Shown: positions 34,499 to 40,757 of the stretch, piece by piece
How the letters are laid out: every line of letters starts with the position of its first letter
Position numbering within the stretch: the first letter of the stretch is position 1
Assembly (NCBI GenBank): GCA_018003035.1
Contig: JAGNEX010000005.1
Location: 12,756 to 74,573, forward strand
Direction of reading: 5' to 3'
Origin: Acidimicrobiia bacterium
Lineage (GTDB): Bacteria; Actinomycetota; Acidimicrobiia; IMCC26256; JAGNEX01
DNA length: 61,818 bases
The notes under the pieces: model-generated
What the model was told of the DNA's origin: nothing
The model's database searches: none
What the model saw: only the letters and a program-made list of their open reading frames with translations
Translations under genes and position numbers: made by a program

Positions 34499-34944
34499 CG
34501 GACGACGTCCACGAAGAGGTCCGTCGGTGGTTGGCGCGTTCCAACCAGCGCTACACGACCGGCCGTCGACGCCTCATCGAAACGATGCTCAAAGCGGCCG
34601 AGCCACTGACCTTGCCCGAAATCGTCGAGCTCACGCCCGACCTCCCACAGAGCTCTGCCTACCGGAACCTGGACGTGCTCGAACAGTGCGGTGTCGTCCG
34701 CCGCATCGCAACCCCGGCGGATCACGCGCATTTTGAGCTGGCCGAACCGCTCGGCGAGCACCATCACCACCTGGTCTGTCTCGGCTGCGAGAAGGTCGCA
34801 GACATCGTCCTACCGGACGGCTTTGAAGACCTCGTCGATAACCAGCTGGATGTGGCCGCTCGAGCGGCAGGCTTTCAGCTCACCCACCACTCGATCGACC
34901 TGTATGGGCGCTGCACGAACTGCAGGGACGTCGATTCGGCCTAG
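34495..34944 (+). CDS. zur: Fur/Zur-family metal-responsive repressor
   Basis: The 149-residue regulator has a winged helix (RYTTGRRRLIETMLKAA, LPQSSAYRNLDVLEQ), the Fur metal segment GEHHHHLVCLGCEKVADI, and a C-terminal zinc pair CTNC. The GTG start overlaps the ATPase TGA by four bases, so the two are coupled. Zinc is inferred from the HHHH/CxxC pattern and the His-rich ATPase next to it. Its stop shares CTAG with the stop of the convergent pseudokinase gene. Confidence 0.83.
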   Translation: MTDDVHEEVRRWLARSNQRYTTGRRRLIETMLKAAEPLTLPEIVELTPDLPQSSAYRNLDVLEQCGVVRRIATPADHAHFELAEPLGEHHHHLVCLGCEKVADIVLPDGFEDLVDNQLDVAARAAGFQLTHHSIDLYGRCTNCRDVDSA

Positions 34945-37286
34945 TTACTCGCCGCCTTTACCGTGTTTTGGGTTGCTGGTTCAAGGTCGCGGGATTCCAG
35001 GTAGGAGTAGGCGGCCGTCGCCTCGCTCGACCCAAGGACATCGACCTCGCTATTGAGACGGGTCATCGTTTGAGTATCCAGTCCAGCGAGGGCCTTGTCG
35101 ATGACGCCGGCAGCGGCCGGGTACTTCTTCAAGACAGCCGCGTCCACGGTCATAGAAATGTTGTAGGGCTCAAAGACATCTGCCCCGTCGACCACCGCCA
35201 AATGCATCGCAACCAGTCGCCCGTCCGTGGTGAAGACCTCGCCGACATCGCATTCCTCGGCGGCGAGCGCCAGATAGATGTCAGAACCCGCAAGCTCTTT
35301 GATCTGGCCTTCGGGGATGGCAAAGCCGGTCTGTTCTTCAAATCTGGCTAGCCCGTCGACCCGCGACCGAAAGTCGGGCTCCATACAGACCACAACGCTG
35401 TCGTCGCTCTCGATCCACTCCACCAAGTCGTCGGTGGTAGCGATCCCATCGAGTTCCGCTGTCGCCTGTCGAACAGCGAAGCCGTAGGTGTTGTTGAACG
35501 GGGCGAAGCCCACCCACTCGATCCCGTTCTCGGCCTTGTCCCGTGTATCGAGAAGTTTGGTGAGCTCGGTGCCCTGAGCCGGCGGCTCATCTGTCTCCTC
35601 CCAGATCACCGACCAAGCGGTCGCATTGAACTCTGGGTACATCTGGATGTTGCCGTCGAGCAGGGCTTCGCGGAGCTCTGGGGTGCCGCCCATGTTGAAC
35701 TGACGCTCCACCACTGCGCCTTGGGCCTCTAGGGCTTCGGCGACGATCTCGACGAGTATCCGCTGTTCGGTGTAAGCCTTCGAGCCGATCGTCACCGACA
35801 TCCCCGACAATGCTTGACCTGCGTTTGCAGACCCGCCCTCTGAGTCGTCGCCGCCTGAGGTTTCCGATGCGCCAGCCTCTTCGGCTGCGCCGGCGACGAC
35901 CGAGCCTCGCCGGCTCGACGGGCCATCTTCCCTGGTCAGGACGATCAGCCCTGCGATTGTCGCCACGACGGCCAACGCCGCCACCAGCCAAGGTTTCGAC
36001 GGATTGGGCGGCTGCGGTCGGCGACGGTCCTTCCTGCTGACATGGGCGTCTGCGTCGTCGTCAGCCTCATCCTCGTGGCCGAGCGAGCCTCCCAACCGGT
36101 TTGGTTGCGGCGTCCACAGCACGTTGGTCGCAGCGCTCGGTCCGCTGATCGTCGTCAGGTCGACGTCATCGTCCGATCTGCCAGCGCCGGTCGGCGTGGT
36201 GCTGATCTTGATCGGACCCGACGCTCGGTAGGCCGGGATGTCCTCGGTTCTCGTCCGAGGCAAACCGTCGAATCCGATCGGCACGATCGTGGTCTCGTCC
36301 AGTTCCTCCGGCTCCTCAGCCCACGGGCTTTGACCGGGCTTCGCACCAACCTCGCGGCCGATGAGATCGGGTTGCGCGGGTACGGCCATCGTCTGCTCGG
36401 TGTCGTTGACCGTAGAACGAGGACGTGGCGCCGCGGCGGGCCGTTCACCGCCAAAGCGGTGCAAAACGGTCAGGCCAGCAGCACGTTTTGACGGCTCGGG
36501 GCTGAGGAGCCGGGGCAGCGAACCTCGAACCGAAGTCGGAACTGCAGCGCCCAAACTTCGCAGCAGCTCTGATACGGCACCGGGTTCCAGATCTGCTGGC
36601 GACGGTTCAACGCCGGTCACTGCCTGGTACATGGCCGCGCCGAGCGCGTAGCGATCGGAAGCCGCTGTGGGTTTATCCCCAGCAGCGAGTTCGGGTGCTC
36701 GCGCTCCGGCACGCAAACCCGCGTTAAGCGCCTCGGGTCCGTCGGATCGCGCTTCGAGATGCCGAATGGTGCCGAGGCCGCCATGGGCCAGTTCGCAGGT
36801 GCCATCGGCTCGCATGTGAAAGCTGTCAGCCGAGATCGCTCCGTGCACGATCCGTTGCTGGTGCAGTGCCTCCATCGAGCGACCGATCGACCGGACTAAA
36901 CGGTCAAGGCTCGCCGCCGAGTCGAATCCCTCGTTGAGGGCCACGTCAGCGACAGTGTCCTTCGTCTCGACCTCTTCAAGCACCCAGAGCTTGCCGTCAC
37001 GTACGCCTGCGTCGATGACGAGCGCGATTCCTGGCTTGGCTTCCGGCCGATACCGCAGCGTCATCGCTCGTTCGTCGAGTTCGTCCAGATCGACGTCTGG
37101 AAAATGACGCCAGGTCAGGATGCCCAACCATTCCCCGTTGCGCATATAGCTCTGCCATAGCGAACCAAAGCGGTTGGACGGGCCATCCACCTCCCAGTCA
37201 TGGATCACAGGGGGTTTATCGGTGGGCGGCACGTGCCGCCCAGAAACATGGGGGCCTAGTTCAGAAGTTGGTCGACTTTCAGACAT
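34941..37286 (-). CDS. pseudokinase-TM-OpuAC (glycine-betaine-type binding) fusion
   Basis: The 781-residue protein starts at ATG 37286 behind GGAG. Residues about 30-270 form a kinase-like fold: APEL near residue 197 and ASDRYALGAAMYQAVTG match the activation end and helix F. The catalytic loop reads VHGAISADS (no HRD Asp), the DFG site reads HGG, and no VAIK-type lysine is visible in GILTWRHFP, so it is probably a pseudokinase. A polar Asp-rich linker leads to one membrane helix (about 432-452). Residues about 496-775 are an OpuAC-like domain (VTIGSKAYTEQRILVEIVAE, YPEFNATAW), which binds betaine-type solutes. It looks like an outside solute sensor tied to a cytoplasmic pseudokinase. Confidence 0.8.
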   Translation of the reverse strand: MSESRPTSELGPHVSGRHVPPTDKPPVIHDWEVDGPSNRFGSLWQSYMRNGEWLGILTWRHFPDVDLDELDERAMTLRYRPEAKPGIALVIDAGVRDGKLWVLEEVETKDTVADVALNEGFDSAASLDRLVRSIGRSMEALHQQRIVHGAISADSFHMRADGTCELAHGGLGTIRHLEARSDGPEALNAGLRAGARAPELAAGDKPTAASDRYALGAAMYQAVTGVEPSPADLEPGAVSELLRSLGAAVPTSVRGSLPRLLSPEPSKRAAGLTVLHRFGGERPAAAPRPRSTVNDTEQTMAVPAQPDLIGREVGAKPGQSPWAEEPEELDETTIVPIGFDGLPRTRTEDIPAYRASGPIKISTTPTGAGRSDDDVDLTTISGPSAATNVLWTPQPNRLGGSLGHEDEADDDADAHVSRKDRRRPQPPNPSKPWLVAALAVVATIAGLIVLTREDGPSSRRGSVVAGAAEEAGASETSGGDDSEGGSANAGQALSGMSVTIGSKAYTEQRILVEIVAEALEAQGAVVERQFNMGGTPELREALLDGNIQMYPEFNATAWSVIWEETDEPPAQGTELTKLLDTRDKAENGIEWVGFAPFNNTYGFAVRQATAELDGIATTDDLVEWIESDDSVVVCMEPDFRSRVDGLARFEEQTGFAIPEGQIKELAGSDIYLALAAEECDVGEVFTTDGRLVAMHLAVVDGADVFEPYNISMTVDAAVLKKYPAAAGVIDKALAGLDTQTMTRLNSEVDVLGSSEATAAYSYLESRDLEPATQNTVKAASN

Positions 37287-37411
37287 GGCGCGCTCCACAA
37301 ACGTGATTCGCCACGTTCAGTGGCTCATCACGCCGTTTTCGTCATGCCGCACCTTTCCCCGCTGCAACATTCTGCAGGTCATTGGAGCAAAGCGCAATAT
37401 TCAACCACTTA

Positions 37412-38647: not shown

Positions 38648-39798
38648 CGGCTGCTGAGCGCTTCCACTCGTGGACCGAACCCGGCGGGCAGCGTTCCCAT
38701 CTCGATCATCCGTTTGACGAACTCCACCCGACTCTTCCGCCAGTCCAGGTTGGTGACCCGATCGAACCCCCGCAAACGCATTGCATGCACTGCCTCCGGG
38801 TTCGTGCTCAGGGTGTGCACCGCCGCCGCCAACGTTTCGGGATCGTCGTCGGGCAGCATCAGTCCGGCATCGCCCACCGTCTCCGCTACAGCGCCAGCAT
38901 CGGTCGCGACGACGGGCAATCCGGTCGCCATCGCTTCTACCAGCGGGATCCCAAAGCCTTCATGCTGGGAGGCGCTCACAAAGACGTCGGCAAGGAGATA
39001 CAGATTCGCGAGTTCGGTGTGCCCGATCGAACCATGAATTCGCACGCGGCCCGCCACCTTGTGACTCTTGGCCACCTGTCGGACATAGGCGCCATAGGAC
39101 GCAGGCGAAGGCCCTCCGACAAGGTCGAGTGACGCTTGGTCGTCGTAGCGAGCAATCGCGACCGCCAGGGCTCGCACCAGACGGTCCTGGGCCTTGTTCG
39201 GGGTGAGGCGCCCCACGAACAACCATCGGGCTCGACGCGTGCGGACCCCGAGGTCACGGTGGACGGGTCGGATCTGGCCCGTCGCTTCGGTCGTCATTCG
39301 GTCGGCGAGCACCGGGACGACCGCGACGGGTGAGGCGCCCAGAGCGGCGAACTCCTCGGCGTTGAAGGTCGAATCGGCGATCGTCGCATCTGCCCGGGCC
39401 GCCAATCGGCGTGCCTGGCGTTCGCCACGCTCCAGCTCGGCGACCATCGCGTCGTCCCAGCCGACGAAGTACTTGGCAGGCGTCAGGTTGTGATAGTTGA
39501 CCACGAGTTTTTCGGGTCGATGCGACACCGTGTCGGCAACCGGCGAACCCGTCGCCAAGTGATAGATGTGCACCCGCTGAGCGGCCGGTCCCTCAGGCGC
39601 GTATGAGAGGTACGGACGAGCCTGGCGGCCGAGGCCACGCCCTATCCGGTCGGCATAGATCTCACTGTCGAGGCCGAGCGCACGAAACGTCCGTTGCAAA
39701 AGCTGCGCGTGTCGACTGACCGCGTCGCGGGCCGTGAACGACGCGACGAACTGATGCACGGCGGCGACCGGGCCGGCATCGTGCATCGGCGCCGTCAC
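38644..39798 (-). CDS. GT-B family 4 glycosyltransferase
   Basis: The 384-residue GT4 has LVVNYHNLTPAKYFVGWDD, FVGRLTPNKAQDRLVRALAV, and SQHEGFGIPLVEAMATGLPV, the classic EGFGIPLVEA donor-site motif. This form is close to the O-antigen mannosyl- or rhamnosyltransferases often beside Wzt. GTG start, with GTGA overlaps at both ends, so it is coupled to the genes before and after. Acts on the cytoplasmic face before export. Confidence 0.88.
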   Translation of the reverse strand: MTAPMHDAGPVAAVHQFVASFTARDAVSRHAQLLQRTFRALGLDSEIYADRIGRGLGRQARPYLSYAPEGPAAQRVHIYHLATGSPVADTVSHRPEKLVVNYHNLTPAKYFVGWDDAMVAELERGERQARRLAARADATIADSTFNAEEFAALGASPVAVVPVLADRMTTEATGQIRPVHRDLGVRTRRARWLFVGRLTPNKAQDRLVRALAVAIARYDDQASLDLVGGPSPASYGAYVRQVAKSHKVAGRVRIHGSIGHTELANLYLLADVFVSASQHEGFGIPLVEAMATGLPVVATDAGAVAETVGDAGLMLPDDDPETLAAAVHTLSTNPEAVHAMRLRGFDRVTNLDWRKSRVEFVKRMIEMGTLPAGFGPRVEALSSR

Positions 39799-40757
39799 GC
39801 CGCGATCAACCTGATCAGGTCAAACCCGGTGTGGTGCTCGACGTCTCGGACCGACCACCCGACCTGGGGAGCGATCGCTCGCCACGTGTCGACACGCCAC
39901 GGCCGGTGCGCAGCAAGATCTTCGGCAAGTACCCCTGCCGTCGCCGCCCACACGGTGCCGTGCCACACCACCACACTGAGCGGAGCCGCTGCCGGCACAG
40001 CGCGTCGGGACGCGTCCAGGATCTGCAGTCGATCCGGCGGCGCAATAACGTCGAGGACGCCCAACATCACGATCCCGGCGAGTTCGCCGCGTTGGATGTG
40101 TCCCAGGTGCGTTCGCAGCGACCCCCGGCGCCCCGGGGTTTCCAGGGGGAGCGCAACACCGTCAGCAACCTTCGCTGCGGTTGGCGCCTGGACGTACCAA
40201 TTGCCAAGCCGTCCCGCCGCAGTCGCATCGGAGTCATCGAATTGGTCGGCACGACATGCGGCCACGAGAGTCGGATGTGCCGACGGAGCGTGGGCCTCTA
40301 CAACCGTCGCCCAGTCTGACCGGTCCAGGCCAGGGCTGACGGCGGCCAACACCGACCAAATCTGGTCAGCTCGGGTCTGTGCCGCCTGCAGTCGAGCGAG
40401 CTGAGTTTCGAGTTCGTCGACGCTGTCTTGCGTTGCCAATCCGTAACGCCCGGCCTGGCGGCGCGCAGCGCGAAGTTGCAATCCCACACCTCGCTTGGCC
40501 ACATCTTTGGCCCGGCCTTTGAGCGACCGCGGGTTGCCGATGGTCAGTGCGTCGGGATCTGTCGGGTCGAGGTCCGGGTCCCGCCACCATGCCGTCGAGG
40601 CGTCTTCGGACGCTCGGGCACGGCCCACCTCGTCCTTGACGGCTTGCACCAACGCGTCGAGGTCGACCTCGGGCGAAACCTCGTGTGGCGGGGCGTCGGC
40701 GTTGGGCTCGTCATCGCCGTGACCGACACCCGTCTTCGGACCGTTCTGTGAGGTCAT
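39795..40757 (-). CDS. unrecognised protein of the glycan export operon, coiled-coil plus methyltransferase-like C-terminus
   Basis: The 320-residue soluble protein has an acidic N-terminus, then a basic helix (SLKGRAKDVAKRG) and a coiled coil (SVDELETQLARLQAAQTRA). The C-terminal half (LPLETPGRRGSL, VMLGVLDVIAPPDRLQILDA, LSVVVWHGTVWA) recalls a worn Rossmann methyltransferase but has no clear SAM motif. It lies between Wzt and the glycosyltransferases, 14 bases from the first and overlapping the second. A chain-end modification or length-control role is inferred from position only. Confidence 0.6.
   Translation of the reverse strand: MTSQNGPKTGVGHGDDEPNADAPPHEVSPEVDLDALVQAVKDEVGRARASEDASTAWWRDPDLDPTDPDALTIGNPRSLKGRAKDVAKRGVGLQLRAARRQAGRYGLATQDSVDELETQLARLQAAQTRADQIWSVLAAVSPGLDRSDWATVVEAHAPSAHPTLVAACRADQFDDSDATAAGRLGNWYVQAPTAAKVADGVALPLETPGRRGSLRTHLGHIQRGELAGIVMLGVLDVIAPPDRLQILDASRRAVPAAAPLSVVVWHGTVWAATAGVLAEDLAAHRPWRVDTWRAIAPQVGWSVRDVEHHTGFDLIRLIAA

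Follow-up and report, generated by a model that had tools for sequence, protein, structure and literature searches.

A gene on the minus strand of the window, by which we mean the whole 61,818-nucleotide stretch of Acidimicrobiia bacterium DNA that was analyzed, encodes a protein in which a pseudokinase is joined, through a linker and one transmembrane helix, to an OpuAC-type solute-binding domain. This four-part anatomy is well supported. The combination is a singleton, present in one genome, with no second case in the other genomes and the papers that we searched. Solute-binding sensors, bacterial pseudokinases, and single-pass receptors of the kinase type are known individually. We judge a ligand-sensing receptor with a dead-kinase platform to be the most likely reading of this protein, the rivals being lineage-specific decay, orphan transport, and sensing of a surface polymer. 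We give about an even chance to the proposal that it is a single-pass receptor that senses a betaine-like solute outside the cell and passes the signal on via a scaffold-type pseudokinase. The features of the gene, in window coordinates, are as follows.

34941..37286, minus strand: whole gene, 781 amino acids plus stop, in the order pseudokinase, linker, transmembrane helix, OpuAC domain
36447..37205, minus strand: kinase-like domain, predicted to be cytoplasmic, residues ~28-280 (weak Pfam Pkinase match, AlphaFold, Foldseek, and alignment)
36837..36845, minus strand: HGA replacing HRD, residues 148-150, with Ser at 152 and 155 (catalytic Lys and Asn positions)
36777..36785, minus strand: HGG replacing DFG, residues 168-170
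35997..36419, minus strand: low-complexity cytoplasmic linker rich in Thr and acidic residues, residues 290-430 (from the sequence)
35934..35996, minus strand: single transmembrane helix without a lipobox, residues 431-451 (hydropathy)
35805..35933, minus strand: short extracellular spacer rich in Gly, Ser, and acidic residues, residues 452-494 (from the sequence)
34977..35804, minus strand: OpuAC/ProX-type solute-binding domain, residues 495-770, with seven contact positions and C634/C679

The reading frame runs from an ATG at 37286 (an alternative GTG at 37298 lies 12 bases upstream) to a stop at 34941 and comprises 781 codons without an internal stop and without any N or ambiguous base. The codon-position composition resembles that of coding DNA over the whole length of the frame, is even, and continues across the domain join, with no sign of a frameshift. 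The only hydrophobic helix is the one at residues 431-451, all other segments scoring 1.3 or less (Kyte-Doolittle scale, 19-residue window). Since basic residues (RKDRRR) stand just before this helix on its N-terminal side, the positive-inside rule places the kinase-like part in the cytoplasm and the OpuAC part outside the cell, a topology predicted from sequence. The linker contains Thr/acid motifs, for example, ELDETTIVPI and DVDLTTISG.

The Pfam Pkinase profile (PF00069) matched residues 84-234 below threshold, with an E value of 4e-5 and 23.5 to 26.5 bits compared to a gathering score of 31.7. The kinase-like domain was aligned with 34 bacterial kinases, and the resulting 35-sequence alignment was supplied to AlphaFold. 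In this alignment, there is no Lys in the N-lobe from the start of the domain to helix C. In the catalytic loop, HRD is changed to HGA, the catalytic Lys to Ser152, and the Asn to Ser155; DFG is changed to HGG. The VAIK Lys, HRD Asp, and DFG Asp that mark an active Ser/Thr kinase are thus all missing. The structural residues are retained: Pro198-Glu199 of the APE motif, the helix-F Asp211, and Arg268, the equivalent of an invariant kinase Arg that is the partner of the APE Glu. That these three features are retained although all catalytic motifs are lost argues for a fold that has probably been maintained rather than left to random decay.

The AlphaFold model of the kinase-like domain (pTM 0.74) has a C-lobe of high confidence and a weaker N-lobe, for which pLDDT is a modest 52-69 over model residues 1-60. 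When the model was compared with the PDB using Foldseek, kinases accounted for 50 of the 50 matches listed (E about 1e-10, TM scores up to 0.73, the highest with B-Raf), and the nearest solved chains by sequence were StkP, B-Raf, and PknB. The domain is very divergent (18-25% identity with its best homologs), and its closest matches within the class are mostly ordinary kinases. As far as the data go, it is a pseudokinase of PknB-type descent. The GLW-for-HRD signature of GLW pseudokinases is absent, the motif here being HGA. The MviN-like ActPs3 family is marked by family-specific constraints and an activation-loop deletion. In the window protein, the motifs are fully degraded and a transmembrane helix follows, but MviN is not a top match, and membership in this or another named pseudokinase family would be tentative. 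Two loci from order relatives, L016:868-2301 and L026:21-1406, encode PASTA-type kinases in which VHGA or VHGG replaces HRD and DFG is missing; the two form a second degenerate kinase group. They were rejected as candidates for the same protein, as they keep the N-lobe Lys and have a PASTA domain and a Thr-rich tail.

The Pfam OpuAC profile (PF04069) matched residues 497-764 over profile positions 2-256 of 257 (E 9e-42, 143.9 bits compared to a cut-off of 21.2). Modeled apart from the kinase-like domain, the OpuAC part reached a pLDDT of 91, and Foldseek matched it to structures of OsmF/YehZ, ProX, EgtU, and OpuBC. Pocket positions were mapped onto Archaeoglobus ProX via a HMMER alignment. The betaine contacts of ProX, namely Lys13, Tyr63, Thr66, Tyr111, Arg149, Tyr190, and Tyr214, correspond to Lys503, Phe553, Thr556, Tyr601, Arg642, Phe685, and Tyr708, so that all seven positions are either kept or changed from Tyr to Phe. 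Nearly all ABC-linked relatives have an identical contact set except for Tyr at 553, and nearly all conserve the Cys634/Cys679 pair. Relatives of the OpuAC domain bind various betaines and quaternary amines.

One other protein of the same class (L060:7654-8763, genome G257) is likewise an orphan OpuAC protein on a single transmembrane helix without a lipobox. It differs in having a short Pro-rich inner tail rather than a kinase and in having lost most pocket residues; its gene clusters with one for CDP-glycerol glycerophosphotransferase. Since the contact residues of the window protein match those of the ABC-linked relatives, unlike those of L060, its ligand pocket looks functional at the level of sequence. 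Overall, these results bear out what the earlier note had read from the letters: a kinase-like domain, one helix, and an OpuAC domain in that order (open frame, Pfam, and hydropathy), the first a pseudokinase by its motifs and of predicted kinase fold, the last full length.

We searched for the same fusion in other genomes. The best relatives of the OpuAC domain (~40% identity) are lipoproteins, mostly encoded within ABC importer operons. An ABC permease was present at 90 of 100 related OpuAC loci examined, and none of the loci had a kinase, either within the same frame or close by. Elsewhere, the order (58 genomes), the class (395), and the phylum (397) yielded no kinase-OpuAC fusion; these samples overlap, and only the top candidates per genome were scored in them. 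A scan of GTDB species genomes gave more than 500 OpuAC matches, and the fusion was absent from the best 80; a search of GTDB contigs using the complete protein revealed no relative, and no homologs split into two genes were found. Apparent fusions in the phylum sample (frames of ~460-1040 amino acids around OpuAC matches) were rejected, being wrong-frame extensions upstream of ordinary lipoprotein starts. A search of the literature for OpuAC combined with kinases returned no relevant report. Within these searches, the domain order, which the earlier note did not know from any described protein, was found in the host only.

Occurrence in a single genome across these overlapping order, class, and phylum samples and the 80 top-ranked GTDB loci, together with the divergence of the kinase part, could mean that the gene is a recent fusion or a decaying gene of one lineage, with a degenerate kinase remnant that has no signaling role. 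We consider this unlikely. The 2.3-kb frame is wholly open, with coding-type codon composition throughout, and the pocket, the cysteine pair, and the kinase structural residues are all conserved. Had the domain been decaying, the APE motif, the helix-F Asp, and the Arg should have gone as well.

Upstream of the gene, on the same strand, lie two glycosyltransferase genes, one unknown gene, and a Wzm/Wzt-type polysaccharide exporter, separated from it by a gap of 125 bases (counted to the ATG). Convergent ABC ATPase and Fur-family genes lie downstream. This gene content says nothing on osmolytes. At 39795-40757 of the window, between glycosyltransferase and Wzt genes, a 320-residue protein without a Pfam family match is encoded.

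There is no OpuAC-type permease in the neighborhood, as the earlier note had stated, and the same result was obtained for the host assembly (3.04 Mb in 147 contigs, completeness 92.8%, contamination estimate 0.29 percent). A profile search of this 92.8% complete assembly for OpuA/OpuB permeases yielded none; the sole match, to a phosphate permease of the PstC type, had an E value of 1.8e-7, compared to 1e-88 to 4e-80 in three control genomes. Judged by this profile, the OpuAC domain thus does not belong to an ABC importer with a cognate permease nearby or elsewhere in the assembly. No BCCT carrier was found in the host assembly either. The host has a second OpuAC match, on contig C78, which is weak (23 bits) and partial and falls in a 343-amino acid frame.

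These searches bear on a further explanation, in which the OpuAC part is a membrane-tethered binding protein feeding a transporter encoded elsewhere in the genome and the kinase-like part is a mere anchor or a regulator of uptake. Permeases of the same type at 90 of the 100 related loci and pocket residues matching those of transport proteins would fit such a role, and ~7% of the genome may be missing. However, the assembly lacks both such a permease, for which the profile gives E values between 1e-80 and 1e-88 in the three controls, and a BCCT carrier, and we regard this explanation as somewhat less likely still than decay.

The position of the gene 3′ of a glycosyltransferase/Wzm-Wzt-type operon raises the prospect that the receptor recognizes not a free osmolyte but a quaternary amine linked to a polymer or located at the cell surface, and that it is tied to the adjacent surface-polysaccharide genes. 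The clustering of the membrane-anchored orphan L060 with a CDP-glycerol glycerophosphotransferase gene points the same way. Yet, the 125-base gap sets the gene apart from the operon, and the loss of pocket residues in L060 means that the functions of the two proteins may differ; we hold such a ligand to be improbable. Least probable is an artifact, in which contamination or a chimeric assembly has fused part of a kinase gene to an OpuAC gene: the genome is in 147 contigs and includes the near-duplicate contigs C49 and C50, but the join is in frame and passes through a proper transmembrane helix, which has a basic juxtamembrane stretch of its own and lacks the lipobox that free OpuAC proteins carry, and both the even composition and the low contamination estimate speak against it.

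In the preferred receptor reading, a full OpuAC/ProX-type clamshell outside the cell would bind a betaine-like solute of the glycine betaine, proline betaine, choline, and ergothioneine class. Inside, the Ser/Thr kinase-derived pseudokinase, presumably incapable of phosphate transfer, would serve as a platform for docking under the control of the ligand. When the ligand makes the outer domain close or pair, the state of the pseudokinase and the Thr-rich linker may be altered, which in turn may change the recruitment of, or phosphorylation by, active PknB-type kinases, as well as FHA binding. The FHA step is modeled on the recruitment of FhaA by MviN in mycobacteria and would hold here by analogy. 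The host encodes three kinases whose HRD and DFG motifs are intact, including a partly masked PASTA kinase, along with FHA proteins and a PP2C phosphatase gene adjoining an FHA protein gene. Therefore, the parts for linker phosphorylation and FHA docking are present, and we infer that host kinases and FHA proteins may act on this protein. Likewise, the identity of the ligand, ligand-coupled signaling, phosphorylation of the linker, and recruitment of FHA proteins are our suggestions. The earlier note had proposed an osmolyte sensor acting through a pseudokinase; the intact pocket residues favor the sensor part, while the ligand, given the various quaternary amines bound by relatives, and the cytoplasmic output are conjectural. 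Occurrence in a single genome, the divergent sub-threshold kinase part, and the modest N-lobe model count against the receptor reading.

Two host contigs, C50 and C49 (L162 and L163), are near-identical. The FHA and PP2C genes recur on both, with minor differences, which points to a strain mixture or a duplication in the assembly.

Known systems offer precedents for some of these steps. The solute-binding protein GlnH controls the kinase PknG through GlnX (PMC6069109, PMC9769921), and the MviN pseudokinase recruits FhaA once phosphorylated by PknB (PMC12599244). By analogy, the proposed steps are plausible, not proven. The GlnH-GlnX-PknG relay similarly informs a Ser/Thr kinase pathway of an outside solute through a solute-binding protein, but it comprises three proteins, an amino acid ligand, and an active kinase, whereas the window protein is one polypeptide whose pocket is of the betaine type and whose kinase domain is dead. 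The MviN/MurJ pseudokinase (ActPs3 family) is actinobacterial, with all motifs degraded and a transmembrane helix and outer domain following; the window protein lacks the MurJ flippase part, its outer domain is OpuAC, and MviN is not among its best sequence or fold matches. PknB/StkP-type PASTA kinases share with it an inner kinase fold, one transmembrane helix, and an outer sensor domain, but the window protein has no catalytic residues and its sensor is OpuAC rather than PASTA. The OpuAC, ProX, OsmF, OpuBC, and EgtU proteins share the fold and ligand-contact residues of the outer domain, which, unlike them, is tethered by a transmembrane helix to a pseudokinase and has neither a lipobox nor a permease.

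For most bacterial Ser/Thr kinases and pseudokinases, little is known of the signal that they sense; here, the intact contact residues allow a guess at the class of ligand, and the protein offers a way to connect one defined small molecule outside the cell with the output of a pseudokinase. If it is a receptor, it would be a one-protein counterpart to the GlnH-GlnX-PknG relay. That it represents an undescribed type of bacterial receptor, in which an ABC-import clamshell, one helix, and a scaffold pseudokinase read an osmolyte into a Ser/Thr phosphorylation/FHA network without transport, we put at a little short of even odds.

In three class relatives, L061 (with L002), L052:7505-10572, and L054:1835-4530, the gene for a BCCT secondary betaine carrier is immediately followed by one for an OpuAC-type lipoprotein. 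The two genes overlap by 4 bases in L052 and L054, and no ABC permease lies nearby at the three loci. This arrangement suggests a BCCT carrier assisted by a binding protein.
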